Source: Labilibacter sediminis
Lineage (GTDB): Bacteria > Bacteroidota > Bacteroidia > Bacteroidales > Marinilabiliaceae
Assembly: GCF_005877885.1 (NCBI RefSeq)
Contig: NZ_VCHY01000015.1
Location: 62,001-126,000, forward strand
Direction: 5' to 3'
Length of the DNA stretch: 64,000 nt
In this document: positions 39,497-63,670 of the stretch, in pieces
How the letters are laid out: each line of letters starts with the position of its first letter
Position numbering within the stretch: position 1 is the first letter of the stretch
Notes under the pieces: model-generated
Database searches by the model: none
What the model was told of the DNA's origin: nothing
What the model saw: only the letters and a program-made list of their open reading frames with translations
Position numbers and translations under genes: made by a program

Positions 39497-42400
39497 ATGA
39501 AACGTGTTCTTTTTTTATTGTTACTGTGTGGGTTAATTGGCATACCAACGTATGCACAAACACCCATTTCGGGTACTATTGCATCTGATAGTTCCTGGAC
39601 GAAAGCAAACTCTCCCTATATTATTACGGGAACTCTACAAATTAGCGCAGGCGTAACCCTAACCATTGACAGTTCCGAGGTGCTGTTTGAAACCAATTCA
39701 GGTATTTTAGTTCATGGTAACCTCAATGCCAATATTGTAAATTTCACTTCAGCCCAAGCCTCAAAACAAAATGGAGATTGGAATTCCATTGAATTCAGAA
39801 GTACTGCCGAAGGTGATTTTTTTGGCTGTAGTTTGGCTTTTGGAGGTCGGTCTGCAGCTAGTATTCATAATGGAACTTTAGATGTGAACGGAGGTACTGT
39901 TGCCATCGATTCTACTACTATCTACAATTCCAGAAACGCAGGTATTGTTGTGCGCTCCGGGGCAAATGTTGAAATGGGTTATCATTCTTCATTGTTATCC
40001 AATACTTACCCAATAGTTTATAGGAGCAACGCTAATGTTACTTTCGATCATAAGGATATCGAAATTATCAACAATTCCTTTAACGGAGCATTTCTTCATT
40101 TTAATTATTTAAATGCAGATATGCATCTCGATACCTTATCTGTTCCATATGTGGTAAATACCACTTTGTATGTACAAAGTGGTCATAATCTGAGTATTAG
40201 TTCCGATAATGTTATCAAGTTTAATAATTCGTCGTTAATTGTGCGAGGAGGAATAAATGCTGAAGCGGGTACCGATCCGGGTTCCACCATTCATTTTACA
40301 TCCTATAAGAATGATAATTTGGGGGGTGATACCAATAACAACGGAACAGCCAATATACCAGGTTCGCGTGATTGGGGTTATGTGAAGTTCGAAAGTGGCT
40401 CGGATGATCCAAACTGTTTACTGCGAAGGTGTGAGTTATCGTATGGAGGAGGAGGAAATCATGGCGTAGTGTGGATTCAGAATGCTGCACCAACCATTGA
40501 TGAATGCGACTTCAGAAACAATTATATTGGCTGTAAGATGGAAGGAAACTCAACGCCCAACTTTACCAACAATCTTATTGGTTCGAGTGATTTGGTTCCT
40601 TTAGCTCTGACATTTGATGCAAATCCGAATTTTGTAAACAATGCCTTTTCATTTTCTGACAATCAATATGATGCCATTGGTATATTAGGAAGTACTTTAG
40701 TTTCGAGTGCTACACTGCCACAACGAGATGTAACAGGTATACCTAATGTGACCTACTTAATGCTTGGAAGGGTAATTATACCGGAAGGAATGACCCTGAC
40801 CATTGACCCGGGTATTGTTATTAAAGGGATAAATTATAATGATAGAATCATTGTTAAAGGAGTGCTTAAATTAGATGGCAAAACTGAAGAAGGACGTATT
40901 ACCATCACTTCGGTGGAGGATGATAATTTTGGTAATCCGGCAGACACCAATAAGGATGGTACACAGACCGATCCTGCCATTGGTGATTGGGGAGGTATCA
41001 TGTTTGAAGGCACGAGTAGTGATGCCGAATGTATTGTAAACTACACCAGGTTGCAATATGCACGCATGCCATCATCCTATTACAATACGCGTTATATTCA
41101 CGGAGCAACCATATCCATGGAAAATGCCAGTCCGCAAATAAGTAATAATATCATTAAAGATTGCGATTACGGCGTATATGCCTTTCAGTCTTCGAATCCA
41201 GACGTGTTAAATAATGAGTTCACCAATATCAACTATACACCGGTAGCGTTATCAGTGAATGCGAATCCGGTATTTTCAGGCAATACCTTTGTTAATGAAG
41301 GTTGGACTGCTTTGGGTATCATTGGTGAAAAACTGGGTTTTGATGGAAATATATTTAAACGAAATATCGCAGGCCATACAAATATCACTTATGTATTGCT
41401 CGAAAATTTAACCATTAATTCAGGTACTAAGCTGGATATTGCACCGGGTGTGGTAATTAAAGTGAATAATAACCAGGCCATATTTGTAAACGGAGGTTTT
41501 AAAGCCGAAGGTTTGGCCAACGATTCCATTGTTTTTACTTCTATCAATGATGATAATTACGGTGTACCTAAGGATACAAAAAATGATGGTGATGCGGCAT
41601 CACCTTCAGCAGGAAACTGGCGGACCATTCAGTTTACCAGTACCGCCGATGACACTTATAACTTAATTAAATATTGCCGTTTATTGTATGGTGGTAACAG
41701 CAGTTATGGAATGGTTACTTTTACAGATGCCGGAGGAACCATTTTATATACAGACATTAGTGATTCACATTATTATGGATTAAAATTTGAAGGGGCAGCC
41801 AGTCCGGATTGCGGTGGTGAGCCGGATGGAAACGGGATAGTTACCTTATCCAATTGCCGACTCGACCCCATTGCCATGTCCTTATCTGCAAATCCAACCA
41901 TGAGTATACATTCTCCTTTATTCCTGTCAAGAGGTAATGGTAGTAATGGTATTTTAATACTCGAAGGAACCCTTAATACAAGTACTACGCTTGAACAGAT
42001 GGATGTAGGAGGTATTTATAATATTGCCTTTATTATTGATCAGTTAACCATTGGCTCAGGAGCTGTGCTAACCTTTGAGCCGGGAGTGGTGATTAAATTC
42101 AGAAACTACTATAGTTATATCAATGTGCATGGAGCTTTAGTAGCGGATGGTTTTAAAGAAAATCCAATTGTGTTTACATCCATTAAAGATGATTCAAAAG
42201 GAGGGGATACCAACGATGATGGTAATGCCTCTGTGCCAACGCGTAATAACTGGCGTTTTATAAAATTCAACTCTTCATCACTCGAAAGTCAAAACCTCTT
42301 ACAAAACTGCATATTAAATTATGGCGGATGGTCTTCGAGCTGGTCGAACGGTAAAAACAGGAGTAATATTATTGTCACAGATTCTTATGCCGAAATAGAT

Positions 42401-44779
42401 TCATGTAGCATCGAACATTGTGCATATACAGGGCTGGGGGTTTTCGGTAATGCTAATCCTGTTGTGACCAATAATGTATTTGCCAATATTGGTGAAGTAC
42501 CTGTGATATTAAGTATGTTTGCCGAGCCGGTATTTGCTGATAATGAGATTTCTAATATTGGTATTAGAGCCATCGGTGTTGCCCGGGAAACTTATGCTTT
42601 GGATGATATTATTCCACAGCGAAATTTTGCAGGGTTTACCAATATGACCTACTATATCTATCAGGAATGTACCGTTAACTCGGGTACAACCCTTAGCATT
42701 CCGGCAGGTACTGTCTTTAAGTCATATAACAGCGATAAGTTTGTGGTAAACGGAGCCTTAAGGTCGTTAGGTACAGAAGCTTCGCCAGTTGTGTTTACGC
42801 ATTTGCGAGATGATATGTATGGTAACCCGATGGATACCAATGACGATGGAGCGGAGTCATCTCCTGCCATTATTAATCAGCCTGCCATTACATACAATGA
42901 TATTTCTTTGGATGAATTTGGTTTGGTTGATTACACTATCTTTAAGTACCACAGAAGCGGGGTTAACCTGGAACAGGCGTCGCCTGTCATTCAAAATTCA
43001 TTATTTAATTTTTGTAACTGGGGTGTAGAACTCAGAGGAGTCTCTAAACCGGATATTGTAAATAATGTATTTAACGACTTAACTCATGCGCCACTTTATT
43101 CATCATTGGTTTCTTATCCGGAGGTGGCTTCGGGTAATGAAATTTTAGGAACAACCTATAAAGCCATTGGTGTACTCTCTGGAGAAGAGTTGGTACAGGA
43201 TGTAACGCTTGAGCGGAAAACATTTGCCGATGTTGAAAATATACCATATTACTTCCATGGCAATTACTCCATTGGTACCAGTGTGGTATTAACCATTAAT
43301 CCGGGAGTGGTTTGTAAGTTTAACAGAGGTGCAAGGTTAACCGTAAAACGTGGTTTATGGGCAGTAGGAAAAGAAGGTGCTGACTCAACGGTTGTATTTA
43401 CTGATATTAGAGACGACTACTATCAGGGCGATACCAACTCCGACGGAGATGCTACTCATCCTGCGGCTTATTATCCATGGTATGGAATTGTTTTTGCCGA
43501 TGAGTCGTTTGATGCTTTGTGCAGAATAGAGCATAGTGTGATACGTTATGCCGGATACTCAGGAAGTCATGCGGCTATTCTTACACAAACAGCCAGTCCT
43601 ACCATTTTAAATTCAAGTATTACAAAATCCAGAAGAGCCTTAAGGGCAGAAGGCGCTTCGAACCCGACCATTAATTATTGTGATATATCCGGAAATGCGG
43701 TTTATGGTGTTGAAAATGTGAATAAGGCCTTTACCATTGATGCCACCAATAATTTCTGGGGTAGCAATACGGGGCCAACACACCCGTCAAATCCTGACGG
43801 TACTGGTGATGCCATTACCGACATGGTGGCATGGGATCCTTATTTATCAAACGGATTTACCTTGCCTGAAATGGGTGATGTTAGTTTAAATGGTATTGTG
43901 CAGGCATTTGATGCTTCACTGGTATTAAAATATGCGGTAGATCCGGTAACCTATCCACTTAGTGCTACACAATTGGGTGTGAGTGATGTGGATGATAATG
44001 ACGCCATCAATGCCAACGATGCCTCATTGATATTGCAATTTGCAGCAGGTATGATTCAAACATTCCCGGCTGAGCTGAAAAGCGGTGAGATATCAGCCGA
44101 ACCAGAGATGTTAGAATTTACGGTTGATCAGATAGAAGTGAATCCGGGCAGTGCATTTAACTTACCGGTGTATGTGAACAATGCCACCGAATTAAAAGCT
44201 GTTGATGCGCTTATTTATTTCGATCCTTCTGTGATGGAGGTATTAGATGTTAACCTGAGCATGGGATCATCGGCCTTAATTGCTTCGAAAATTGACAATA
44301 CTTTGGGTGAAATTAAGGTTGCTATAGCAGCAGCAGGTCCTGTAACCAACGATGGTATCTTACTCATGTTAAATGCCAAAGCAGTGGATGAGGAAGGTGC
44401 GCATACAGCTGTGGTGATAGATGAATTACTGGCCAACGGTAACGATGGAACCCATGATATAGTGAATGGTACGGTTGATGTGCAAATAATAACCGGGGTT
44501 GGAGAAAATGAAATCGCCAAGGTGGTTGTTCATCCAATTTATCCGAATCCGGCAACTGATCATTTTAAAGTAAGCTATTCAGTTAAATCAGCAAATACTC
44601 TGGTTAATATTGGTGTTTACCAAATGAATGGAGCATTGCTTTTGGAGGTAGTAAACGACTATCAGTCACCAGGTCATTATCAAAAAATAGTGAATGAACT
44701 CAACGGTTTGCAAGGAACTTATGTGGTTAAAATTGTTATTGGTAATGTGGTGAAGAATCAGTTAGTGGTGATACAATAA
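39497..44779 (+). CDS. giant T9SS-secreted beta-helix repeat protein with dockerin and cohesin-like domains
   Basis: The 1760-residue protein has a signal peptide (KRVLFLLLLCGLIGIPTYAQ). Seven repeats of about 205 residues start near 47, 224, 428, 638, 850, 1056 and 1257. Each has a short hydrophobic ladder (for example LTIDPGIVIKGINYND), an I/V-x-F-T-S turn, and in repeats 2-7 an acidic DTNxDG loop like a calcium site, as in right-handed beta-helix proteins. A dockerin-like segment lies at 1461-1525 with two calcium-loop patterns (DVSLNGIVQAFD and DVDDNDAINAND). A cohesin-like domain covers about 1535-1668, and a T9SS type A sorting domain (IYPNPATDHF...) ends the protein. It is probably a cell-surface or secreted adhesin or scaffold; no catalytic domain is visible. 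It is followed 10 bases later by a second cohesin-bearing protein. Confidence 0.88.
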   Translation: MKRVLFLLLLCGLIGIPTYAQTPISGTIASDSSWTKANSPYIITGTLQISAGVTLTIDSSEVLFETNSGILVHGNLNANIVNFTSAQASKQNGDWNSIEFRSTAEGDFFGCSLAFGGRSAASIHNGTLDVNGGTVAIDSTTIYNSRNAGIVVRSGANVEMGYHSSLLSNTYPIVYRSNANVTFDHKDIEIINNSFNGAFLHFNYLNADMHLDTLSVPYVVNTTLYVQSGHNLSISSDNVIKFNNSSLIVRGGINAEAGTDPGSTIHFTSYKNDNLGGDTNNNGTANIPGSRDWGYVKFESGSDDPNCLLRRCELSYGGGGNHGVVWIQNAAPTIDECDFRNNYIGCKMEGNSTPNFTNNLIGSSDLVPLALTFDANPNFVNNAFSFSDNQYDAIGILGSTLVSSATLPQRDVTGIPNVTYLMLGRVIIPEGMTLTIDPGIVIKGINYNDRIIVKGVLKLDGKTEEGRITITSVEDDNFGNPADTNKDGTQTDPAIGDWGGIMFEGTSSDAECIVNYTRLQYARMPSSYYNTRYIHGATISMENASPQISNNIIKDCDYGVYAFQSSNPDVLNNEFTNINYTPVALSVNANPVFSGNTFVNEGWTALGIIGEKLGFDGNIFKRNIAGHTNITYVLLENLTINSGTKLDIAPGVVIKVNNNQAIFVNGGFKAEGLANDSIVFTSINDDNYGVPKDTKNDGDAASPSAGNWRTIQFTSTADDTYNLIKYCRLLYGGNSSYGMVTFTDAGGTILYTDISDSHYYGLKFEGAASPDCGGEPDGNGIVTLSNCRLDPIAMSLSANPTMSIHSPLFLSRGNGSNGILILEGTLNTSTTLEQMDVGGIYNIAFIIDQLTIGSGAVLTFEPGVVIKFRNYYSYINVHGALVADGFKENPIVFTSIKDDSKGGDTNDDGNASVPTRNNWRFIKFNSSSLESQNLLQNCILNYGGWSSSWSNGKNRSNIIVTDSYAEIDSCSIEHCAYTGLGVFGNANPVVTNNVFANIGEVPVILSMFAEPVFADNEISNIGIRAIGVARETYALDDIIPQRNFAGFTNMTYYIYQECTVNSGTTLSIPAGTVFKSYNSDKFVVNGALRSLGTEASPVVFTHLRDDMYGNPMDTNDDGAESSPAIINQPAITYNDISLDEFGLVDYTIFKYHRSGVNLEQASPVIQNSLFNFCNWGVELRGVSKPDIVNNVFNDLTHAPLYSSLVSYPEVASGNEILGTTYKAIGVLSGEELVQDVTLERKTFADVENIPYYFHGNYSIGTSVVLTINPGVVCKFNRGARLTVKRGLWAVGKEGADSTVVFTDIRDDYYQGDTNSDGDATHPAAYYPWYGIVFADESFDALCRIEHSVIRYAGYSGSHAAILTQTASPTILNSSITKSRRALRAEGASNPTINYCDISGNAVYGVENVNKAFTIDATNNFWGSNTGPTHPSNPDGTGDAITDMVAWDPYLSNGFTLPEMGDVSLNGIVQAFDASLVLKYAVDPVTYPLSATQLGVSDVDDNDAINANDASLILQFAAGMIQTFPAELKSGEISAEPEMLEFTVDQIEVNPGSAFNLPVYVNNATELKAVDALIYFDPSVMEVLDVNLSMGSSALIASKIDNTLGEIKVAIAAAGPVTNDGILLMLNAKAVDEEGAHTAVVIDELLANGNDGTHDIVNGTVDVQIITGVGENEIAKVVVHPIYPNPATDHFKVSYSVKSANTLVNIGVYQMNGALLLEVVNDYQSPGHYQKIVNELNGLQGTYVVKIVIGNVVKNQLVVIQ

Positions 44780-44789
44780 ATCATAAGTT

Positions 44790-46763
44790 ATGAAACGGTT
44801 TGTTTATTATATCATCCTGTTGTTTTCAATGCTGGCTTTTTCCTTTAAGGTAAGTGCCAGCGTTGGACTGCGTATTGCCAATAATAGTGGATATGTTGGT
44901 GATACGCTGCTGATAGCAATTAATACCCTGTCGTCTGTAACCGACAGTGGTATCTATGCCTATCAGCTGGAGTTGAACTATTCACCCAATTACTTTAAAC
45001 CGATTGGTGTGAGTACCAGTGGAACCCTTTCCGAATCGTGGGGCGATCCTCAGATGAATATATATGATACCGGGAAATTGCGCCTTAGTGCTGCAGGTGT
45101 AGCGGCGCTTGAAGGACAAGGAACACTGGTGTATATAAAGTTTAAATTGATGCGTGTTGGTAATGTATATATCACTTTTTCCAATACGAGTTACAATATG
45201 CTTAATGAGGGCGATCCTCAGTTAACGCTCGAAAATGGACGAATTAATATTGTTGCACTTCCTTTTATTACTGTTACACCCAATCAGGGGGTAATACCCA
45301 TAGGAGGAACAATGCAGTTTTATAGCGCCCAGGGCGTAGCGCCTTATACCTATTCTGTTACCGATAATAGTGTGGCTTCTATTTCAAGCACAGGCTTACT
45401 TACCGGTTTAAAACGGGGTAAAGTGTATGTAGTGTCTACCGATCAAAACAATGTGTCTGACTCAACAAATAGTCAGATTGAGGTGGTGCCTTTTAGCATG
45501 GTGATACGGGACACCAGCCATTATCAGAATCAAAAGGTTAGTATTCCTGTAAATATATCGTCTTTAGATGTAGAAGAGGTGGTGTCGGGGAATGTCACCA
45601 TTAACTACAATAAGGATGTGTTGCAAGCGGAAGACATCATAACAGAAGGTACATTGTTACATTCGGCCGGAGTGGAGTTTTATGTTTCAGGTTCAGGTAA
45701 AGTAACAGTTTCTTTTGCCCAGGATAGTCCTGTTACCGGGCAGGGGGTATTGTTTTATGTTCGTTTTCAGATAGCTAACCGCAGCAGTGGTGCTACTCAC
45801 TTAAATTTTAGCGATGTTATTTTTAATGAGGAATTGTTTTCAGTATTTGATCATGGATATTTTAGAATACTGGCCTTACCTCCTTTAAATGTAACACCTA
45901 AAACAGGTACATTAATGACAGGAGAACAGCTTGATTTTTCTGTTTCAGGAGGTACTGCACCGTATGTTTGGAGTGTATCATCGAATAATTATGCCAGTAT
46001 AAACTCTGATGGCTTGTTAACCGCCTTGTCAGGAGGTGATGTAGTGGTTTCTGCACAGGATGTATATGGTGCTTTTGGATCTTCTAATGTGGTATCTATT
46101 TACGATGCAGTATTGACAGTTGCACACGTTGAAGCTCCTATTGATGCAGAAGAGGTGGTAGTGCCTATTCATATTTCGGCGCTTGAGCCCGGAAAAGAAA
46201 TCATTAGTTTTTCCGGAGAAGTACAGATGGTGCCTAACAAAACAAACAACTTTGAGTTGGATAAAGTCGGAAGTATTTCCGAAACCTGGGCCTCTGCGTC
46301 TAATACTGCCGACGATAAGTTTAAGTTTGCCATGGCCGGAATATCCGGATCGTTGGGCGATGCCCTGTTGGCTTCGTTAAACACAACTTTTGCCGAAGGA
46401 GCAGTGGTGGGTAATACCATTCAGGTGAATATTAATGATGTGGTAGCCAACGAAGGTAGTCCGCGCCTATTGGTTAATCACGGTAGTATTAAGGTTACTC
46501 AGTCTACAGGTATTGAGGATACAGAGTTGGCTGTATTATCTGTATTTCCTAACCCAACAGACGGTGTTGTTTGGTTTACTTCGGAGACTTTAATATCAAG
46601 GGTGGTTGTGTATAGCATCACAGGGGTAAATGTACACACATTCTTATATCAAAGTCCTGTCCGAAGTGGTGAGCTTGATTGTTCTTCTTTAAGTGGTATG
46701 TACTTATTACAGTTTTATACCGATGATGGTCATCTCATTTATAAGAAGATTAAGGTTAATTAA
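44790..46763 (+). CDS. T9SS-secreted protein with three cohesin-like and two Ig-like domains
   Basis: The 657-residue protein has a signal peptide (residues 1-23). Three cohesin-like beta-sandwiches lie at about 25-152, 233-358 and 438-570, with segments such as YAYQLELNYSPNYFKPIGV, GNVTINYNKDVLQAEDI and IISFSGEVQMVPN, each with a GxGTLVYIKFKL-type strand. Two bacterial Ig-like domains (about 160-232 and 360-437, with SISSTGLLTGLKRGKVYV and SINSDGLLTALSGGDVVV) separate them. The T9SS C-terminal sorting domain (VFPNPTDGVVWF, ending KKIKVN) occupies 575-657. It is co-transcribed with the dockerin-bearing giant protein, so it is a plausible scaffold or receptor for it. The cohesin calls rest on pattern only. 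Confidence 0.82.
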   Translation: MKRFVYYIILLFSMLAFSFKVSASVGLRIANNSGYVGDTLLIAINTLSSVTDSGIYAYQLELNYSPNYFKPIGVSTSGTLSESWGDPQMNIYDTGKLRLSAAGVAALEGQGTLVYIKFKLMRVGNVYITFSNTSYNMLNEGDPQLTLENGRINIVALPFITVTPNQGVIPIGGTMQFYSAQGVAPYTYSVTDNSVASISSTGLLTGLKRGKVYVVSTDQNNVSDSTNSQIEVVPFSMVIRDTSHYQNQKVSIPVNISSLDVEEVVSGNVTINYNKDVLQAEDIITEGTLLHSAGVEFYVSGSGKVTVSFAQDSPVTGQGVLFYVRFQIANRSSGATHLNFSDVIFNEELFSVFDHGYFRILALPPLNVTPKTGTLMTGEQLDFSVSGGTAPYVWSVSSNNYASINSDGLLTALSGGDVVVSAQDVYGAFGSSNVVSIYDAVLTVAHVEAPIDAEEVVVPIHISALEPGKEIISFSGEVQMVPNKTNNFELDKVGSISETWASASNTADDKFKFAMAGISGSLGDALLASLNTTFAEGAVVGNTIQVNINDVVANEGSPRLLVNHGSIKVTQSTGIEDTELAVLSVFPNPTDGVVWFTSETLISRVVVYSITGVNVHTFLYQSPVRSGELDCSSLSGMYLLQFYTDDGHLIYKKIKVN

Positions 46764-55436: not shown

Positions 55437-56312
55437 ATGTTTAAGTATCACGAACCGGTTTTTCGTCCGCCTGCCGAGGCAGCCTCAGCCATCATACAAG
55501 CCACCCTGGGGTGCTCATGGAATAAATGTGCTTTCTGTGAAATGTACAGTTCAAAGCAATTTAAAACCAGAAGTTTTGAAGAGTTAAAACAGGAGATAAA
55601 GTTTTTGGCTAAAGTATTGCCTTCTACCAAAAAAGTGTTTTTGGCCGATGGAAATGCCTTTGTGCTTTCCGCTGCTAAGTTAATGCCTGTTTTGAGTGAG
55701 ATAAATAAAAACTTCGGCAGGATTCAACGAATATCATCCTATGCCTTACCTAAGGATATCCTGGCAAAAAGTTATGACGAGTTGGTTGATTTAAGAGCAA
55801 ACGGACTAAAACTATTGTATATAGGGATAGAAAGCGGCGATGACGAGGTTCTTAAACTTCAGAATAAGGGAGAAACGTTTACCTCAACCCGGGAAGGTAT
55901 TTTAAAAGCGCATGAAGCAGGTATTGACACTTCGGTAATGATACTAACCGGCTTAGGAGGGGAGAAGTATACAGAGCAGCATGCCGTTAATTCTGCCAAA
56001 CTCATTAATACAATTAATCCGAAATTACTGTCGAGTCTTAACTTAAGTTTTCCTTATGGTGTGGAGCATTACAAGAGTAAGTTTCAGGGTGAATTTATAC
56101 CACTGACCATTGCCGGAGTTTTAAGAGAGATGCAGATGTTTATGGCTAATCTTGATTTAGAAGGAACAATATATCGAAGCGACCATGTATCCAATCAGTT
56201 GGTGTTAAAGGGTGTTTTGAACAGAGATAAAGAAGTATTGCTAAATCAAATTGAGGACGCTCTGGCGAACACACCCGAAGGTTTATATCCCGATGCACCA
56301 ATGATGCTTTAG
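55437..56312 (+). CDS. radical SAM protein
   Basis: The 291-residue protein has the cluster motif C26-SWNK-C31-AF-C34 (CX4CX2C, one residue longer than the classic CX3CX2C but normal for this NifB/Elp3-like subfamily), followed by EMYSSKQFKTRSFEEL. It has the radical SAM barrel features GIESGDDEVLKLQNKGET, VMILTGLGGEKY and LLSSLNLSFPYG. It has no accessory B12 or SPASM domain. The start is the ATG at 55437, 38 bases after a TATCTTTG -7 box. Product unknown. Confidence 0.88.
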   Translation: MFKYHEPVFRPPAEAASAIIQATLGCSWNKCAFCEMYSSKQFKTRSFEELKQEIKFLAKVLPSTKKVFLADGNAFVLSAAKLMPVLSEINKNFGRIQRISSYALPKDILAKSYDELVDLRANGLKLLYIGIESGDDEVLKLQNKGETFTSTREGILKAHEAGIDTSVMILTGLGGEKYTEQHAVNSAKLINTINPKLLSSLNLSFPYGVEHYKSKFQGEFIPLTIAGVLREMQMFMANLDLEGTIYRSDHVSNQLVLKGVLNRDKEVLLNQIEDALANTPEGLYPDAPMML

Positions 56313-56948: not shown

Positions 56949-57800
56949 ATGGAAAATCTTGCGCAAATGAAAAAGCATGCCAAAGAAATGCGTTCAAAAG
57001 TATTTGAATATCTCCTAAAAACGCGAGGATGGAAATACAGATCTTTCTTAAGGTATCTGCGTTTTTTTAAATATATATCATTTAGTCCCAAGCGAGGCGA
57101 TTTTCTGGAATCCTACTATACCTTAATGCGTTACATTGATGATGTTGTGGATGGGGATGCTCCATTGCCAAATGGATATAGTACTCCGACAGAGTATATC
57201 CAGGCTAAATTGGAGTTCTCTAAGTCGCTGGTGGATGCTGGTGACGAAGCAGACTATTTACTACTGTATTGTTATCAGCTGGCAGAGAAGTTTGGAGAAG
57301 ATTTTACGGACGAAACCAATGATATATTATCCAGTCTCTTGTTTGATGCCAAACGGCGTGGGAAGGATATCTTTTTTCCGGAGAAAGAATTGATGCATCA
57401 CTTTCACCTCCTGGATGTAAGAGGTACCATACGTGCAACTTTAAAATTATTTAAAGAGTCGCCTGATAAATATGAATTATTGTCTCCCCTGGGTATTGCA
57501 ACGCGTATTCATTATGATTTACAGGATTATGAATCGGATCTTAAAGCCGGTTATATAAATATTTCACAAGAGGATTGTACTCAGTTTGGCATTGATTCCG
57601 GAAATATCAGGAACACTTCTCATCCTTCCGTTCAAAAATGGTTTCAACACCAGGCTAATAAAGGAATGAAGTTACTGGATGAGCATCACCGGAATTTATC
57701 TTTGGCAGATTTTTCTTTATTGACAAGAACTACATTACCCCTGGTGTATGAATTACCCGCTAAAAAGTTTTTTAATAAAGTGTTGTCTTCGGTCAATTAA
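56949..57800 (+). CDS. squalene/phytoene synthase-like head-to-head prenyltransferase
   Basis: The 283-residue protein has both aspartate-rich motifs of the squalene/phytoene synthase family. The first is RYIDDVVDGD with D64/D65/D68. The second is RIHYDLQDYESDLKAGYINIS with D190, D193 and D197. SYYTLMRYIDDVVDGDAP is a typical family block. Such enzymes join two prenyl diphosphates head to head. The protein lacks a C-terminal membrane anchor, like bacterial homologues. First gene of a six-gene operon; the next gene begins 25 bases after its stop. Which prenyl diphosphates it joins is not clear. Confidence 0.82.
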   Translation: MENLAQMKKHAKEMRSKVFEYLLKTRGWKYRSFLRYLRFFKYISFSPKRGDFLESYYTLMRYIDDVVDGDAPLPNGYSTPTEYIQAKLEFSKSLVDAGDEADYLLLYCYQLAEKFGEDFTDETNDILSSLLFDAKRRGKDIFFPEKELMHHFHLLDVRGTIRATLKLFKESPDKYELLSPLGIATRIHYDLQDYESDLKAGYINISQEDCTQFGIDSGNIRNTSHPSVQKWFQHQANKGMKLLDEHHRNLSLADFSLLTRTTLPLVYELPAKKFFNKVLSSVN

Positions 57801-57825
57801 TAAAGTGTTATTGGAGAAATAAAAA

Positions 57826-58674
57826 ATGAGCCTTATGACGAATAAATACCCACCCAATGATTCGAGCAGGTGCGAATCTGGTTTTTATCTCACCAAATGG
57901 TTTTTGGATTGTATTGATGAAGATGGGGGGACTATGATCGCTTATTCGGCAAAAATGAGTTGGAACGGTTTTTCTGTTCCATACACCAGTGTATTTTTAT
58001 TTCAATCCGGTAAAGTAATAATCAATAAATCCAGGCTGGATCAGCCTGTCAGTCCTTTAAAAAAAGGTGAAATAATAGAATGGCACGACAAAAGATATGG
58101 AGTAAAAGGCACTTGGAAGCAAACCTCACCAACTTTAAAAGAAAAGCTTTATGAATCTCAAAACGGGTATTTAGAGTGGTGTTGTTATCAGCCCGAAGCA
58201 AATACGGAAGTACATATAAAAGGAAAAGGAATAATTAAAGGAAAGGGATATGCTGAACAGTTAACATTAACCATTGAACCATGGAAAATACATATGGAGC
58301 AATTACGATGGGGAAGATTTCATTCGGGAGAGGATAGCCTGGTTTGGGTTGAATTTAAGGGGGAGAAGTTAAAACGATGGGTCTGGTATAATGGCAAAAA
58401 GGTTGAAGCCACTCATCTTGATGATGATCATTTATTTATTCTCAAGTTAGGTATTCAGCTAAAATTGGAAAATAAACAGGTGCTGGAACAAGGGAAAAAA
58501 ATTTATAATATCGCCAAATCACTCTTGTCTTATTTACCGGGATTTAATAAAGTAATACCAGGCTTTTTTTTAAATGCCAAAGAAATAAAATGGATGAGCA
58601 GAGGCACACTTGAACAGGATGGAGCAAGTATACGGCAAGGTTGGGCTATTCATGAACTGGTTGATTTTGTATAA
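57826..58674 (+). CDS. CrtC/AttH-like lipocalin-fold protein
   Basis: The 282-residue protein resembles carotenoid 1,2-hydratase (CrtC) and AttH-like proteins: a tandem lipocalin-type beta fold with GKGIIKGKGYAEQLTLTIEPW followed by LRWGRFHSGEDSLVWVEFKG. It has no signal peptide, although close relatives are often periplasmic. Given the neighbouring prenyltransferase, it could bind or hydrate an isoprenoid. It sits in the second position, 10 bases before the ABC ATPase gene. Similarity to CrtC is remote, so the enzymatic role is inferred. Confidence 0.62.
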   Translation: MSLMTNKYPPNDSSRCESGFYLTKWFLDCIDEDGGTMIAYSAKMSWNGFSVPYTSVFLFQSGKVIINKSRLDQPVSPLKKGEIIEWHDKRYGVKGTWKQTSPTLKEKLYESQNGYLEWCCYQPEANTEVHIKGKGIIKGKGYAEQLTLTIEPWKIHMEQLRWGRFHSGEDSLVWVEFKGEKLKRWVWYNGKKVEATHLDDDHLFILKLGIQLKLENKQVLEQGKKIYNIAKSLLSYLPGFNKVIPGFFLNAKEIKWMSRGTLEQDGASIRQGWAIHELVDFV

Positions 58675-58683
58675 ACTAAACAG

Positions 58684-59289
58684 ATGATTCTGCAAGTAGA
58701 AAATATCCAAAAAGCATTTGGTTCAAAACATGTTTTGAACGGAATTTCTATTGCCATTCATCAGGGTATGCTGATAGGTATAGTGGGTGAAAACGGGGCC
58801 GGTAAATCTACACTGGTAAAAATATTAGTTGGGCTATGGAAAGCTGATAGTGGTAGGTTATCAATCAATTGCAAAACAGGTTATTGCCCACAATTACCCC
58901 TGGTTTTTCAACACTTATCGGTAATGGAGAATTTTAGATATTTTGCTTCAGCCTATAAACTATGTACTCATAAAGGGGATAAGCAACCCTATTATGAACA
59001 GTTAATGAAGCTTTTTCGATTTGATGAATATAAGAATCAATTGGTGATGAATTTAAGCGGAGGTACTATTCAAAAGTTAAACCTTGCCATCGCCCTGATG
59101 CATCAACCCGATTTATTAATTCTTGATGAGCCTTATAATGGTTTTGATTGGGATACCTATCTGTGCTTTTGGGAATACATCAAGCACTTTAGAGAAGAGG
59201 GAGGAAGTATTCTGTTGGTGACTCACCTGTTAACAGATACCTCAGTGTTTGACCAGGTTTATAATATTAAAAAGGGTGTTTTGGAATGA
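58684..59289 (+). CDS. ABC transporter ATP-binding subunit
   Basis: The 201-residue ATPase has Walker A GENGAGKS (35-42), signature LSGGT (123-127), Walker B LLILDEP (143-149) and the H-loop in LLVTHLL. It is a short ABC-2-type ATPase. It overlaps the permease gene by four bases (ATGA), so the two are translated together. It would drive export of a compound made by the neighbouring enzymes. Confidence 0.93.
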   Translation: MILQVENIQKAFGSKHVLNGISIAIHQGMLIGIVGENGAGKSTLVKILVGLWKADSGRLSINCKTGYCPQLPLVFQHLSVMENFRYFASAYKLCTHKGDKQPYYEQLMKLFRFDEYKNQLVMNLSGGTIQKLNLAIALMHQPDLLILDEPYNGFDWDTYLCFWEYIKHFREEGGSILLVTHLLTDTSVFDQVYNIKKGVLE

Positions 59290-60047
59290 AAGAAAGTCGC
59301 TTATATATTAGTTTTGTTCTGATTATGAAGCTGTTGCTCAGAAGACGGATGGTGCCTGTTTTAATGGTTGTGATCCCTGCAGCTTTCTTTTTGGTTGTTT
59401 ATTTAACCACCTCAACCAGGGTGATTCCTTTCAGGGTTGCATCTATGGCTGAAGATATTTTTATAGAAGTGGGCGAGAGAAGCTGTTCCCTTGCATTTTT
59501 TGCAGTGGCCTCTGTTGGTTTTCTTTCATCTTACGTGGGGCTTATCCTCATTCAAAGTAATGTGGCCGTTAATCATCGATTAATCATTTGTGGGTATCAT
59601 CCTTTAGAGATATTGTTAAGCCATTTTATTGTATTGTTCATGATCATTCTTTTTGTGGCTGCATATACAAGTTTGTCACTTTTAATCTTTTTTTCTCCGT
59701 CACAATTCATCTTATTTTTTCTGAGTTTGATACTTGCAGGATGGGTATATGGAAGTTATGGTTTGGCCATAGGAAGCTTGATAAAAGGGGAGCTCGAAGG
59801 TATTTTAATGATAGTGTTACTTGCGAATATTGATGCCGGATGGCTTCAAAACCCACTATTTTATGCCGAAGCTGAAAACCAGGTAATCATCAGGTATTTG
59901 CCGGCTTATTTCCCCTCTCAGGCAGCTATTATTTCAGCTTTCTCAACTTATGATGTAATCAATGTAGTTTTAGGTTCTTTGATCTACGGATCACTCTTTT
60001 TTATATTGGCCAATGCCATGTTTTATTCTAAAATGAAGAAAGTGTAA
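59286..60047 (+). CDS. ABC-2-type transporter permease
   Basis: The 253-residue protein has six predicted membrane helices and the length of ABC-2 permeases. Helices are separated by short loops; the segments FLSSYVGLILIQSNVAVNHRLI and HPLEILLSHFIVLFMIILF show the usual pattern. Direct overlap with the ATPase gene identifies it as its partner. Substrate unknown, but the operon context suggests a lipid or isoprenoid. Confidence 0.85.
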   Translation: MKESRLYISFVLIMKLLLRRRMVPVLMVVIPAAFFLVVYLTTSTRVIPFRVASMAEDIFIEVGERSCSLAFFAVASVGFLSSYVGLILIQSNVAVNHRLIICGYHPLEILLSHFIVLFMIILFVAAYTSLSLLIFFSPSQFILFFLSLILAGWVYGSYGLAIGSLIKGELEGILMIVLLANIDAGWLQNPLFYAEAENQVIIRYLPAYFPSQAAIISAFSTYDVINVVLGSLIYGSLFFILANAMFYSKMKKV

Positions 60048-60059
60048 AACGTTAAAGCA

Positions 60060-61979
60060 ATGAAATCAGGCAAATACAGAATAAATAAAGTACTATATGG
60101 TGTCTTTTTTATCATTATCCTCCCTGCACTACTATGGTTATGGAGCGTTTATACCAATCCATTGATACAAATGCCTGCCATTCAATCTTCTTTTTGGGGA
60201 CCTGCACTATTTATTGCGGGATTGTTACTTATGTTGTGGGGTATGTATGCCATTGTCAGGTATGGCAATGGATTGCCCATGAATGCCTATCCGCCTGCTA
60301 AGTTGGTTAAACAGGGACCATACCGCTTAATGTATCACCCCATTTATTACGGATTTGGGATTTTACTGATAGGGGCGTCTATATATTTTGGTTCGGTCAG
60401 TGGTATTTGGTTAGTTACGCCTGTAACCATTCTTGGTATGATGGCCTTAGTATGGGGATACGAAAGGATTCAATTACAAAAAAGATTTCCTGAATACGAA
60501 TCACCGGTATTTTTTTCATTACCGGCTAATGTCAACAAAAAAGCTTTTTGGAATCATCGTGTTATTGCTTTTGTGTTACCCGCTTTTTTCTGGATAACAG
60601 GAAATGCATTGAGCCTGTTATTGTACGATGATCATATCTCCATATCTAAACAGGTTGGGATTGTCGAGTACCTTCCGTTCTCAGGCGAAATTAGCTGGCT
60701 GTTGCTTCTTTTATTTTTGGCAATACCTTTTTTACGGCTTTCCCAATCAGATTTACGAGACTGGACTATTTCGTCTTTAGTGGCAATTTTTCTGATATTC
60801 ATGACAGCAGTGCTCTTACCTAAAGTAGGGATTAGATATTTTTTAAATGATGATGCTGTGATGGGAAAGGAAGGGGTTTTTATGATACAACTTCCTTATT
60901 TTAAGTTATTGACTTTTCATGGTTGTTTGATTTTGTTACTAGGAAGAATCTTTGCCAGATCTTTATTTCGTTTAAGTTTATTTATATGGAGTATCACACT
61001 TATACTCTTTGTGAATATGCTTAGCTTGAGCCAGTGGCCGTTATTAAATATGGTCAGTTCTTTAATCATGTATCTGATAATTATTAGAAGAAACGTCATA
61101 TGGGAAAAATTGAGGCTTGTTGCAGAACGTATCGCTAACTCCTGGAAGGAGTGGGTGATTGGCCCTGTTCGGATCATAAACCATGGATTTTATGTTGGCG
61201 TTGCTGCTTTTTTAGGTGTTGTTTTGTCAGGGTGGTTAGTTGGTAGCCAATATGTTTGGGCTATTGTTGTTTTCGGATTGGTTGTGATTGTTTTTTCGGC
61301 CTTGTGGGCACAATTTATTGAGGGATCTGAGAAACTGAAACGTCCATATGGGTATTACGGAGCATTGGTAGGAATTATTTTTTCCTCAATAGTAGTAGGT
61401 TTAATGGGCTATGATGTGTGGGTTATTATAGGCGTTATTTCTGTTTTTATGCCATGGATGCAAGCTATAGGTCGTTTACGTTGCCTTATAAATGGTTGCT
61501 GTCATGGTAGTGTAACAAATAAAGAGGCTTTGGGAATTCGATATTTTCATCCGCGATCCAGGGTTTGCGGGCTATCGGACATGAAAGGGGAATTGCTTCA
61601 CCCAACTCCGTTATATGCAATTGTTTGGCTCTTTATGGTTGGTTTGGTTTTATTGGTCTTGTGGTTCAGACAGGTTTCGTATCCTATGATTTTTGGACTG
61701 TATTTAATTTTATCAGGGATAGGGCGTTTTGTTGAGGAGGCTTATAGAGGTGAAGTACAGACACCAATTGTATTTGGCCTTCGCTTGTATCAATGGACGG
61801 CTGTTGTATCTGTAATGGTGGGTGCATTTATGACTACGCTTAAAGTTAACCGCCTCGAACTGGAACCTATCTATGAATTAGATATTTTATATGCAGGCCT
61901 TGTGTTAGGATTTTTTACTTTTTTGGCAATGGGTGTGGATTTTCCTAAATCCAATCTGCGTTTTTCGCGATTAGTATAA
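60060..61979 (+). CDS. multi-domain membrane protein: ICMT-like and Lgt-like domains fused
   Basis: The 639-residue protein has about 17 membrane helices. Residues 1-165 resemble isoprenylcysteine-type methyltransferases: KLVKQGPYRLMYHPIYYGFGILLIG (79-104) and YERIQLQKRFPEY. The middle (170-370) is an uncharacterised membrane segment. Residues from about 460 resemble prolipoprotein diacylglyceryl transferase (Lgt): AIGRLRCLINGCCHGSV (465-481), HPTPLYAIV (about 514) and GRFVEEAYRGEVQTP. The glycerol-transfer arginines are only partly conserved. I know no protein with this combination. It starts 12 bases after the permease gene and may methylate and acylate or glycerolate a lipid made by the cluster. 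Confidence 0.68.
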   Translation: MKSGKYRINKVLYGVFFIIILPALLWLWSVYTNPLIQMPAIQSSFWGPALFIAGLLLMLWGMYAIVRYGNGLPMNAYPPAKLVKQGPYRLMYHPIYYGFGILLIGASIYFGSVSGIWLVTPVTILGMMALVWGYERIQLQKRFPEYESPVFFSLPANVNKKAFWNHRVIAFVLPAFFWITGNALSLLLYDDHISISKQVGIVEYLPFSGEISWLLLLLFLAIPFLRLSQSDLRDWTISSLVAIFLIFMTAVLLPKVGIRYFLNDDAVMGKEGVFMIQLPYFKLLTFHGCLILLLGRIFARSLFRLSLFIWSITLILFVNMLSLSQWPLLNMVSSLIMYLIIIRRNVIWEKLRLVAERIANSWKEWVIGPVRIINHGFYVGVAAFLGVVLSGWLVGSQYVWAIVVFGLVVIVFSALWAQFIEGSEKLKRPYGYYGALVGIIFSSIVVGLMGYDVWVIIGVISVFMPWMQAIGRLRCLINGCCHGSVTNKEALGIRYFHPRSRVCGLSDMKGELLHPTPLYAIVWLFMVGLVLLVLWFRQVSYPMIFGLYLILSGIGRFVEEAYRGEVQTPIVFGLRLYQWTAVVSVMVGAFMTTLKVNRLELEPIYELDILYAGLVLGFFTFLAMGVDFPKSNLRFSRLV

Positions 61980-61997
61980 CCTCTTAATGTATAGCGT

Positions 61998-63134
61998 ATG
62001 CTTGTTTCTGATATAATAAGGCAATGTGGAACTCCTGTTTATGTGTATGAAGAGAATAGAATTTCGCAAAACTATCAGGAAATAGTTAATGCGTTTCCTT
62101 ATCAGAATAAACAAGTGCATTATGCCGTGATGTGTAATAACAATATGGAGGTTTTAAAAATTCTTAGAAACCTGGGTAGCTCGGTTCAGATTAATTCGTT
62201 GCTTGAATTAGAATTGGTTAAAAAAGCAGGGTTTAAGAAGGAGCAAATTTCTTTCACTTCCACAGGAATGAATACAGAAAGTTTGCAGACCATAGTGAAA
62301 GAGGAGATCCAGGTTAACCTTGATTCTGTTGAAGAAGTTGAGAAGTATTGCAGGTTAAGTGGAGGCAGAAGTTTTGGGATCAGAATAAATATAAAAGAAG
62401 ACATTGAACTGGAAGAAGGCCATACAAATTCCTATAAAAGTTCGGATGTTGGAATTTGCGAGGATGATTTTACAGAGGTGAAAAAGGTAGCTAAGAAATG
62501 GGGGAGCAGGATTAATGGGATTCATGGTTATTTGGCATCTAATTTATTAGAAACAGCGCCATTTATAAGGTTCTCAAACTATATGGCAGTGTGTGCAAAA
62601 CATTTCGATGACCTGGAATATGTGAATTTCGGGAGCGGATTTGGTGTCTTTTGTGAATCTCTTGATAGAAAGTTTGATTTTGACCTAATAGGAAATCATT
62701 ACTCAAATATTATGCAGGAACTGAGTAGTTATTTTGATAAAAATATACAATTGAAAATAGAGCCGGGCCGTTCTGTTGTCGCTTCTGCAGGTATACTTTT
62801 AACCAGAGTAACCAATGTAAAACAACTCAAAAATAAAAAACAGCTTTCGATAGATGTTGGGTTTGGGGACTTTGCCCGCCCAAAACTATATGATGCCTGT
62901 CATTCTATTGAAGTGGTAGGGAAAAATGGAGCCAATGAGGTTTATGATGTCAGGGGCAATACGGTATTGCAATCTGATTTTCTGGGAAGAAACAGGGCAC
63001 TTCCCATAGTGGAAGAAAATGATATCCTTGTTATACGAAATACAGGTGGTTATGGTAGTGTGATGGCTTCAGGTTTTCCGGGAAAAAGAAAACCTATGGA
63101 GATTTTGGTTCAATCATTTCCGGAATTACGATAA
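61998..63134 (+). CDS. alanine-racemase-fold decarboxylase homologue without catalytic residues
   Basis: The 378-residue protein has the fold-type III PLP decarboxylase layout (LysA/ornithine decarboxylase family): the TIM barrel with EPGRSVVASAG, the LPIVEENDILVIRNTGGYGSVMAS C-terminal segment, and FGSGFGV. The Schiff-base lysine, normally in YAxKAN, is replaced by methionine (Y42-A-V-M45-C-N), and the C-terminal cysteine of the CESxD motif is replaced (VLQSD). The phosphate loop and GYG tyrosine remain. It is either a non-PLP or PLP-binding pseudoenzyme, or an enzyme with a different chemistry. Last gene of the six-gene operon; its stop codon lies in the first bases of a MITE-like element. 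Confidence 0.82.
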   Translation: MLVSDIIRQCGTPVYVYEENRISQNYQEIVNAFPYQNKQVHYAVMCNNNMEVLKILRNLGSSVQINSLLELELVKKAGFKKEQISFTSTGMNTESLQTIVKEEIQVNLDSVEEVEKYCRLSGGRSFGIRINIKEDIELEEGHTNSYKSSDVGICEDDFTEVKKVAKKWGSRINGIHGYLASNLLETAPFIRFSNYMAVCAKHFDDLEYVNFGSGFGVFCESLDRKFDFDLIGNHYSNIMQELSSYFDKNIQLKIEPGRSVVASAGILLTRVTNVKQLKNKKQLSIDVGFGDFARPKLYDACHSIEVVGKNGANEVYDVRGNTVLQSDFLGRNRALPIVEENDILVIRNTGGYGSVMASGFPGKRKPMEILVQSFPELR

Positions 63135-63305
63135 ACCCACAATATGCATTAGAAAATCTATTACACATTGAAATTCCTTCAAAACAAGTCACTTCGTTAC
63201 TTCACCTCAACTCACCAGAACGATGCTATGCCTCGTTTCGGTAAAGTCTTGTTTTATTGCACTTTCAATCCTCATGACGAAGTTCTAATACATAATGCGG
63301 GATAA
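63132..63305 (-). repeat. MITE-like palindromic element, copy 5
   Basis: TAAACCC at the left forms the stop codon of the preceding gene (TAA at 63132-63134). Ends GCGGGATAA at the right. Same orientation as copies 4 and 6. Confidence 0.88.
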
Positions 63306-63451
63306 ATATTTTTGGATGCTGATATTGCCATAATTCTACAGCTCCCGAAGGAGTTTTATGTTCGTGATGTGGATCGTAAAAACTTCTCAGTGCCTTTGTG
63401 TCTCTGTGTTCATCTTTTATAAAGGACAGCACAAGGTCTTAGAATATAAAA

Positions 63452-63480
63452 AAGGCCGGTATCAATAAAGATCCGGCCTT
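63452..63480 (-). terminator. hairpin reading as a leftward terminator
   Basis: AAGGCCGG (63452-63459) pairs with CCGGCCTT (63473-63480); on the minus strand T6 follows. No gene to its right in this window reads leftward into it. Confidence 0.5.
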
Positions 63481-63499
63481 AAATTTCAAAAGGGAATTA

Positions 63500-63670
63500 T
63501 TAAACCCGCGTTATGCATTAGAAAATCTACTACGCATTGAAACTGCTTCAAAACAAGACACTTCGTTGCATTACGTCAGCTCACCAGAACGATGCTATGC
63601 CTCGCTTCCGAAATACCTTGTTTTATTGCTCTTTCAATGCTCGTCACAAAGTTCTAATACATAATCCGGG
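63500..63670 (-). repeat. MITE-like palindromic element, copy 6
   Basis: TTAAACCCGCG to ATCCGGG; the right-hand TTAA is lost. Confidence 0.85.

Follow-up and report, generated by a model that had tools for sequence, protein, structure and literature searches.

A lipocalin-fold protein and a three-domain membrane protein form the core of a candidate lipid biosynthesis and export operon in Labilibacter sediminis

The six-gene operon

The stretch of DNA analysed here (the window; 64,000 nucleotides, positions 62,001 to 126,000 of contig NZ_VCHY01000015.1, RefSeq assembly GCF_005877885.1) comes from Labilibacter sediminis and carries, at positions 56949-63134, an operon of six genes, G1-G6, that probably builds and exports a lipid. 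The listing of open reading frames (ORFs) places the six head to tail, all on the + strand, with intergenic spacings from G1 to G6 of 25, 9, -4, 12 and 18 bases. The genes are:

56949..57800, + strand: G1, SQS/PSY-superfamily protein of its own clade, 283 aa (Pfam SQS_PSY 25.9 bits against a cut-off of 26; 20 relatives aligned)
57826..58674, + strand: G2, predicted CrtC/AttH-type double lipocalin with no hydrophobic N-terminus by simple hydropathy, 282 aa (structure model and Foldseek)
58684..59289, + strand: G3, ABC transporter ATPase, 201 aa (PF00005, 93.3 bits)
59286..60047, + strand: G4, ABC-2-like permease with a 4-base overlap with G3, 253 aa (ABC2_membrane_3 27.7 bits, under the cut-off of 31.6)
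60060..61979, + strand: G5, three-domain membrane protein, 639 aa
61998..63134, + strand: G6, diaminopimelate-decarboxylase-fold protein, 378 aa (TIGR01048 248.2 bits against a cut-off of 297.9)

The same order, G1-G2-G3-G4-G5-G6, is found in two Carboxylicivirga genomes that belong to the same family and another genus (Carboxylicivirga sp. M1479 and C. marina; loci L007 and L008, the latter from C. marina), with 41-70% identity per protein. Because this order recurs and the G3-G4 pair stands directly before G5 in 26 of the 54 loci with at least 2.6 kb of sequence upstream of G5, the gene set is not a product of chance, and the six genes are a real, conserved unit. An earlier reading of the window from its sequence alone (the sequence-only reading) had described them as one rightward unit containing an ABC ATPase and a permease that overlap by four bases, and had pointed to other Bacteroidota as the place to look for the same order; these proposals are borne out, with the permease assigned to its family below the cut-off and showing seven hydrophobic segments by simple hydropathy.

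Distribution of the gene set

Within the family, 71 genomes (the window's included) yielded G1 in four and G5 in three. The fourth genome with G1 (L006) has an intact G1 followed directly by only a 24-residue match to G2, and for this reason looks like a cut-down copy of the six-gene operon. The eight other genomes of the same genus contain neither G1 nor G5, so the operon is patchily distributed.

A single scan of genome contigs with the G5 alignment gave 68 G5 loci, a number that undercounts carriers as the scan relies on two short peptide patterns. By record title these loci belong to Bacteroidota, Ignavibacteria, Acidobacteria, Gemmatimonadetes, Neomarinimicrobiota, KSB1, Planctomycetes/Phycisphaerales, Puniceicoccales and Alphaproteobacteria, and G5 identities fall to 30% across the relatives. 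The six families were scored in the G5 loci by profile hidden Markov models, some loci being near-duplicates (e.g. L031/L032). Among the 54 loci with sufficient upstream sequence, G2 is present, upstream of G5, in 50, the G3-G4 pair in 26, G1 in 18 and G6 in five, and no other constant neighbour was seen at the core-only loci.

An even draw of 395 Bacteroidota genomes contained a full-length G5 in eight (the window's included), all eight with G2, which adjoins G5 directly in seven; G3-G4 lie in between in the window. At least three of these eight carriers are genomes already among the 68 loci, as judged by equal SQS coordinates, so the two samples overlap. The G1 profile matched two of the 395 genomes, in both cases within G2-G5 loci, and two more genomes have weak G2 matches: G492, which has a divergent cluster described below, and G295, with a Diels-Alderase-type relative. 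The heart of the system is the G2+G5 pair, which occurs across phyla and mostly without G1, the ABC pair or G6. On this point the sequence-only reading, which put a prenyl-coupling enzyme first among the six, is wrong or incomplete, as that enzyme is not the core.

G5 combines methyltransferase, PAP2-derived and Lgt-like domains

G5 can be divided into the following parts:

60060..60509, + strand: domain 1 (residues ~1-150), PEMT/ICMT methyltransferase-like, with motif HPIY...E135 (PEMT in 58 of 58 relatives)
60537..61103, + strand: domain 2 (residues ~160-348), PAP2-derived, catalytic motifs lost here (PAP2_3 in 25 of 58 relatives, not the window's own)
61137..61976, + strand: domain 3 (residues ~360-639), Lgt-like (LGT in 58 of 58 relatives)
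61470..61508, + strand: GRLRCLINGCCHG, where Lgt has its signature GRLGNFINGELWG (by comparison with the E. coli Lgt sequence)

Domain 1 scores 37.9 bits with PEMT (cut-off 25) and 19.8 bits with ICMT, under its cut-off of 24; among G5 relatives the PEMT match is likewise the more general one in Pfam (58 of 58, against 25 of 58 for ICMT). Methyltransferases of the ICMT/PEMT type share the motif HPxY...E, and in G5 the residues P94, Y96 and E135 are each conserved in 58 of 58 relatives and H93 in 56 of 58. By profile and motif, domain 1 is thus classed with the ICMT/PEMT methyltransferases.

The middle domain was recognised through the PAP2_3 matches in 25 of 58 relatives together with matches of the G5 profile to stand-alone PAP2 proteins over residues ~158-348, which make G5 a methyltransferase, PAP2 and Lgt-like protein. 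PAP2 phosphatases carry the motifs PSxH and H...D. Of the 58 G5 proteins, 25 have the first motif, as PSxH or PAFH, and 24 of these also H...D (the first motif stands alone in L049); the other 33, the window's included, have lost the first motif. None of these 25 proteins lies near G4 or G1 (L061 is without upstream sequence to judge), and the 33 PAP2-lost proteins hold all 26 loci with G4 and all 18 with G1. In a tree built without the middle domain (quick search, SH-aLRT support only, no bootstrap), 32 of the 33 PAP2-lost proteins group as a single clade (SH-aLRT 99), and the PAP2 state changes twice overall. This clade is centred on Bacteroidota, one further loss lies elsewhere, and among the 58 aligned G5 proteins the ABC exporter, G1 and G6 are confined to the clade. 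Residue 478 mirrors the split, being Asn in the 32 and Gln in the other 26. PAP2 loss as the cause of exporter gain was considered and is not claimed: the split of 25 against 33 looks clean, but with two changes on the tree a pair test has no power, and what is left is a pattern only.

The predicted model of G5 (pLDDT 88.8) has a single fold match with E <0.001, E. coli Lgt (5azb), and the Lgt-like domain scores 69.6 bits with PF01790 against a cut-off of 24.9. Its motif residues R472, C475, C480, C481, H482 and G483 are each present in 58 of 58 relatives, as are R472 and R556 in the places of Lgt Arg143 and Arg239. For Lgt itself, every tested mutant of His103 (H103A/N/Q/R/Y) and Glu151 (E151A/Q) is reported to be inactive (PMC4728403). 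Both residues are replaced in G5 and present in a true Lgt that the genome encodes separately, which rules G5 out as the cell's own Lgt; on these grounds of residues and gene content we conclude that G5 is Lgt-like, not a prolipoprotein Lgt. The sequence-only reading had taken G5 for a fusion of ICMT-like and Lgt-like parts. The PEMT/ICMT and Lgt domains are there; the PAP2-derived third domain had been missed, and the Lgt-like part has lost some of the residues that prolipoprotein transfer needs.

Further members of the Lgt family were noticed alongside. A third such protein of the window's genome (L183:4055-5818, 588 aa) has a GCCFG motif and a long C-terminal extension, and paralogues in several Bacteroidota (L142, L143, L145, L147) have GCCYG replacing the NGE signature. 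The GCCYG paralogues are possibly a distinct enzyme family.

G2 has a predicted double-lipocalin fold

No Pfam family fits G2 (57 relatives scanned, best E 0.0059). Its predicted model (pLDDT 93.2) matches, in Foldseek, AttH (2ich), the Diels-Alderases Fsa2, CghA and Phm7, kievitone hydratase and 25-phosphosteroid lyase, at TM scores (query) of 0.42-0.59, 6-12% identity and ranks 1-27; no CrtC structure is among the matches listed. The CrtC/AttH-like fold proposed by the sequence-only reading is in agreement with these matches. The G2 profile was also aligned with a four-sequence profile made of two annotated CrtC proteins, an Agrobacterium lipocalin-like protein and the L173 protein (probability 87, E 3.8e-6 for a single comparison). 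In CrtC, alanine mutants of His239, Trp241, Tyr266 and Asp268 are inactive (PMC4717167). The profile alignment, with the published numbering placed by the H-x-W and Y-x-D spacing and counted by eye, gives:

58177..58257, + strand: G2 W118, Y142 and E144 in the places of CrtC Trp241, Tyr266 and Asp268 (Asp to Glu), with Leu116 in the place of His239

Across the 57 relatives W118 and Y142 are invariant and E144 is Glu in 56 and Asp in one, while the place of His239 is taken by Leu, Val, Ile, Ala or Met in all 57. G2 thus keeps three of these four CrtC places, one of them as Glu. Judged from these residues, G2 probably performs acid catalysis on a lipid-like substrate, and since the CrtC His is missing its reaction need not be hydration.

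G1 is a divergent member of the SQS/PSY superfamily

The two motifs of G1 were compared over 20 aligned relatives:

57138..57152, + strand: first Asp motif, D64-D-x-x-D68 (D64 and D65 20 of 20; D68 19 of 20, one gap)
57504..57539, + strand: second motif, R186..Y189-D190..D193...D197 (R186 20 of 20, Y189 19 of 20, D190 20 of 20, D193 19 of 20, D197 20 of 20)

The Asp motifs reported by the sequence-only reading are therefore real, since at least 19 of the 20 relatives keep each Asp; the SQS_PSY score is borderline. The second motif of squalene/phytoene synthases reads QxxNxxRDxxxD. In G1 and its relatives the Gln is replaced by Arg (20 of 20) and the Asn by Tyr or Phe (20 of 20), and the Arg is kept in one of 20, being mostly Glu or Gln. 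G1 thus has both Asp motifs of these synthases and differs at the Gln, Asn and Arg.

The window's genome, which is 6.36 Mb in size and given as 100% complete and 2.47% contaminated, has no SQS/PSY match other than G1. Three amino-oxidase matches were found there, two short and weak and one strong, the strong one being a protoporphyrinogen oxidase and not a CrtI-type desaturase, and the HpnC and HpnD models score far under their cut-offs. The sequence-only reading had held that this is not a standard carotenoid cluster, which agrees with these results. When 50 carrier genomes were searched with the G1 profile, strong matches were obtained in 15, of which 14 are copies beside G5 (included in the profile) and one (G091) lies on another contig; there was one further marginal match (9e-4). 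Outside G2-G5 loci, G1 is rare. As a separate observation, the genomes of three carriers whose loci lack G1 (L019, L022, L046) have a divergent SQS-like gene beside a CrtI-family desaturase gene elsewhere in the genome (L108, L109, L110; family tested for L108 only).

G6 lacks the PLP lysine and the catalytic cysteine of LysA

The best solved relatives of G6 are diaminopimelate decarboxylases (LysA). Aligned with LysA 2p3e, it shows:

62130..62132, + strand: Met45 at the place of the pyridoxal phosphate (PLP)-binding Lys (Met in 6 of 6)
62967..62969, + strand: Leu324 at the place of the catalytic Cys (Leu in 6 of 6)

Neither the Lys nor the Cys that characterise LysA is thus found in any of the six sequences. 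The sequence-only reading had recognised a LysA-fold protein without its lysine; the catalytic Cys is gone as well. The position of G6 varies between loci, either after G5 or before G2 (L014, L024, L025).

Locus variants and surroundings

A sulfotransferase-family gene, of one family, directly follows G5 in five loci (L019, L027, L029, L038, L039), which fits a tailored small molecule. Pfam was run on two of these:

L027:11890-13506: sulfotransferase-family gene
L038:11876-12997: sulfotransferase-family gene

The L027 sulfotransferase is fused to an APS (adenylylsulfate) kinase, and that of L039 apparently likewise, from its sequence. One family of radical SAM/SPASM proteins occurs near six G5 loci (L019, L026, L027, L035, L038, L043), on the opposite strand in five; Pfam was run on one of the six (L027:5745-6800), whose best NCBIfam matches are far under their cut-offs. 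L186:4417-10857, a divergent cluster in a phylum-sample genome, consists of a G2-like gene, a cytochrome P450, an ICMT-Lgt G5, a G3-like gene (39% identity to the G3 of the window), a G4-like gene (35% identity to its G4) and a LysA-fold protein in which the PLP lysine is retained. No second complete copy of it was found in 92 genomes of its family, where one contig end was looked at. As these sulfotransferase, radical SAM and L186 variants show, parts are exchanged around the G2+G5 core, as in specialised-lipid or natural-product pathways.

In the window itself, a radical SAM gene at 55437-56312 was considered as a seventh member of the operon and left out: it lies 636 bases upstream, by eye neither L007 nor L008 has it next to the set (no homology search was made), and in its best NCBIfam matches it is unlike the radical SAM protein found near six relatives. 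The G+C content of the operon (37.4%) does not differ from that of the window (36.8%). Spread by viruses or plasmids was considered and rejected: a pattern scan of viral contigs gave 13 candidate stretches, of which none is a relative, and plasmids gave no match at E 1e-5. Promoter-like sites (18 found, 25.0 expected) and terminator-like sites (9 found, 5.5 expected, standard deviation 2.3) were not used. Downstream of the operon, at 63150-63670, similar stretches of ~120 bases occur twice, by eye. Upstream of the C. marina operon (L008:3195-6014) and divergent from it are ATP-grasp ligase-like and glutamine amidotransferase-like genes, again by eye. At some distance, window positions 39497-46763 encode two large adjoining proteins that have cohesin domains and weakly match the type IX secretion tail.

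Discussion

The explanation that accounts best for these observations is a biosynthesis and export operon built on an older G2+G5 core that modifies a membrane lipid, with an isoprenoid-containing product, to which we give a probability of roughly 40%. With its retained diacylglycerol-site arginines, the Lgt-like domain of G5 would take a diacylglyceryl (or related) group off phosphatidylglycerol and place it on a non-protein acceptor, and the methyltransferase domain would methylate it. G2 would act by acid catalysis, as prenyl-acting enzymes with this fold do, and bring about hydration, cyclisation or elimination at a double bond of prenyl type in the acceptor. Ancestrally, it is presumed, the PAP2 domain would first have removed the phosphate from a lipid phosphate, perhaps a prenyl one. 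In the Bacteroidota-centred branch this activity would have been lost, with G1, as a divergent head-to-head prenyl synthase, supplying the isoprenoid and G3-G4 exporting the product. G6 would make no Schiff-base use of PLP and may serve as a binding or regulatory subunit, or perform non-PLP chemistry.

Several observations weigh against this reading. The second motif of G1 is aberrant, so its reaction may differ from that of the family. SQS_PSY is found in 42 of 50 carrier genomes against 376 of the 395 evenly drawn Bacteroidota, which is no enrichment and leaves an isoprenoid link through co-occurrence unsupported; the comparison covers the genomes of 50 of the 68 loci and has an unmatched control, with many carriers from other phyla. 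When G1-profile matches are added the carriers with a match come to 45 of 50, genomes G071, G073 and G090 having a G1 that the SQS_PSY model misses. The remaining five have neither match (G113, which is Chitinophaga hostae, and G080, G092, G097 and G107, which are metagenome-assembled genomes and may be incomplete), which argues that the G2+G5 core needs no squalene- or phytoene-type product. Since 32 of the 33 PAP2-lost proteins form one clade, and the PAP2 state changes about twice with all exporter and G1 loci inside one such clade, the association of PAP2 loss with the exporter is in effect a single event. The divergent L186 cluster has an exporter alongside a two-domain G5 without any PAP2 domain. 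Finally, G5 stands without G2 in four of the 54 loci (L026, L037, L042, L048).

The proposal of an isoprenoid or lipid product in the sequence-only reading thus holds in part. SQS/PSY is not enriched in carriers and is missing from some of them, such as C. hostae; the isoprenoid component is plausible and depends on G1, the G2 fold and general reasoning.

Alternatively, the core could make an isoprenoid-free aminolipid derived from phospholipids, in which the Lgt-like domain would use phosphatidylglycerol as the diacylglycerol donor for an amine or amino acid, PEMT-like N-methylation would follow, G6-type proteins would be tied to the amine head group, and G1 would be a late, lineage-specific addition. 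The generality of the PEMT match compared with ICMT in G5 and the retention of the Lgt donor-site arginines would suit such a product, as would the five carriers with neither an SQS/PSY nor a G1 match, the lysine kept by the LysA-fold protein of L186, and the lack of a nearby G1 at 40 of 58 aligned G5 loci, a few of them owing to lacking upstream sequence. It accords poorly with the presence of G1 in the same operon in a third of the loci (18 of 54) and with the G2-fold relatives that have CrtC-type residues (CrtC and 25-phosphosteroid lyase), which act on prenyl-type carbons. Kievitone hydratase, another relative by fold, also acts on a prenyl-type carbon. An aminolipid is unlikely on this evidence, if the most serious of the competitors.

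Membrane-lipid remodelling or a protective system, with no exported natural product and with G3-G4 flipping a lipid across the inner membrane, is improbable. Small ABC-2 type transporters can move lipids, and a G2+G5 core in very different phyla could reflect such a general role, but the patchy distribution (3 of 71 genomes in the family, 8 of 395 in the phylum sample) and the variable tailoring genes look like specialised metabolism.

The fusion in G5 also brings to mind a bacterial counterpart of CaaX processing: Lgt-type enzymes make an S-lipid-cysteine, ICMT-type enzymes methylate one, and G5 joins both types. Its Lgt-like domain would S-lipidate a cysteine, free or in a small peptide, its ICMT-like domain would methyl-esterify the lipidated cysteine, and G3-G4 would export the result. 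The invariant Cys and His of the Lgt-like motif and the radical SAM/SPASM neighbour near six loci, of a type common in peptide maturation, are set against the loss of Lgt H103 and E151 from G5 and the absence of a precursor-peptide gene in the operon among ORFs of at least 80 aa, shorter ones not having been searched; we hold this to be quite unlikely. A carotenoid or hopanoid cluster, whether degenerate or standard, to which the SQS/PSY family and the CrtC-like fold might point, is very improbable in view of a genome listed as 100% complete with no second SQS/PSY match, no CrtI-type desaturase among its strong amino-oxidase matches and HpnC and HpnD scores far below threshold.

Returning to the isoprenoid-containing lipid, a bolder form of this reading can be offered only tentatively. 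G2+G5 would constitute an undescribed pathway over many phyla, in which G5 would unite methylation and lipid dephosphorylation with the transfer of diacylglyceryl from phosphatidylglycerol to an isoprenoid acceptor that is not a protein, and the outcome would be a new lipid class; the Bacteroidota-centred branch would have made this an exported product by disabling the phosphatase and recruiting an ABC exporter, a pseudoenzyme derived from a PLP enzyme and a head-to-head prenyl synthase of divergent type. A literature search, which could have missed an earlier account, found no description of the gene set or of the G5 fusion, and no homologous cluster assigned to a known compound; such a cluster is what the sequence-only reading had named as evidence against it. 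As far as we have seen, known enzyme families appear here in a new combination and with residue changes that fit no pathway known to us.

The retention of G2+G5 over great distances suggests that the pair probably does something useful. G2 is outside Pfam, and the Lgt-like domain of G5 matches models named for a lipoprotein enzyme, at odds with its residues. If the proposal is true, it points to a new bacterial lipid class and offers a compact two-gene system for tracking it down. The PAP2 domain, with its site lost, and the decarboxylase, with its lysine gone, clearly exemplify enzyme domains seemingly repurposed within a pathway.

Comparison with known systems

Each component resembles a known family and departs from it. 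With squalene/phytoene synthases (CrtB, CrtM, HpnC/D) G1 shares the superfamily match and both Asp motifs; it differs in three second-motif residues (Gln, Asn and Arg), in a score of 25.9 bits against 26, and in a genome where no desaturase was found. G2 shares with CrtC, AttH, kievitone hydratase and 25-phosphosteroid lyase the predicted double-lipocalin fold, Trp241, Tyr266 and an acid at Asp268, but lacks His239, is ~10% identical to the solved structures and lies beside a membrane enzyme, not carotenoid genes. Relative to PAP2-family lipid phosphatases (PF14378/PF01569), there is domain homology in 25 of 58 G5 proteins, whereas the motifs are absent from the window's G5 and its clade and the domain is embedded between two others. 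G6 resembles diaminopimelate decarboxylase LysA in whole-length homology, the glycine loop and EPGR, and differs from it in the loss of the PLP Lys and the catalytic Cys. The alignment with E. coli Lgt, in turn, shows that G5 retains Arg143, Arg239, Glu243, Arg246 and Gly154, while it has Tyr or Phe for His103 (58 of 58), Cys for Asn146, Cys for Glu151 (58 of 58) and Ala or Ser for Glu202, and its Lgt-like domain is fused to two other domains.

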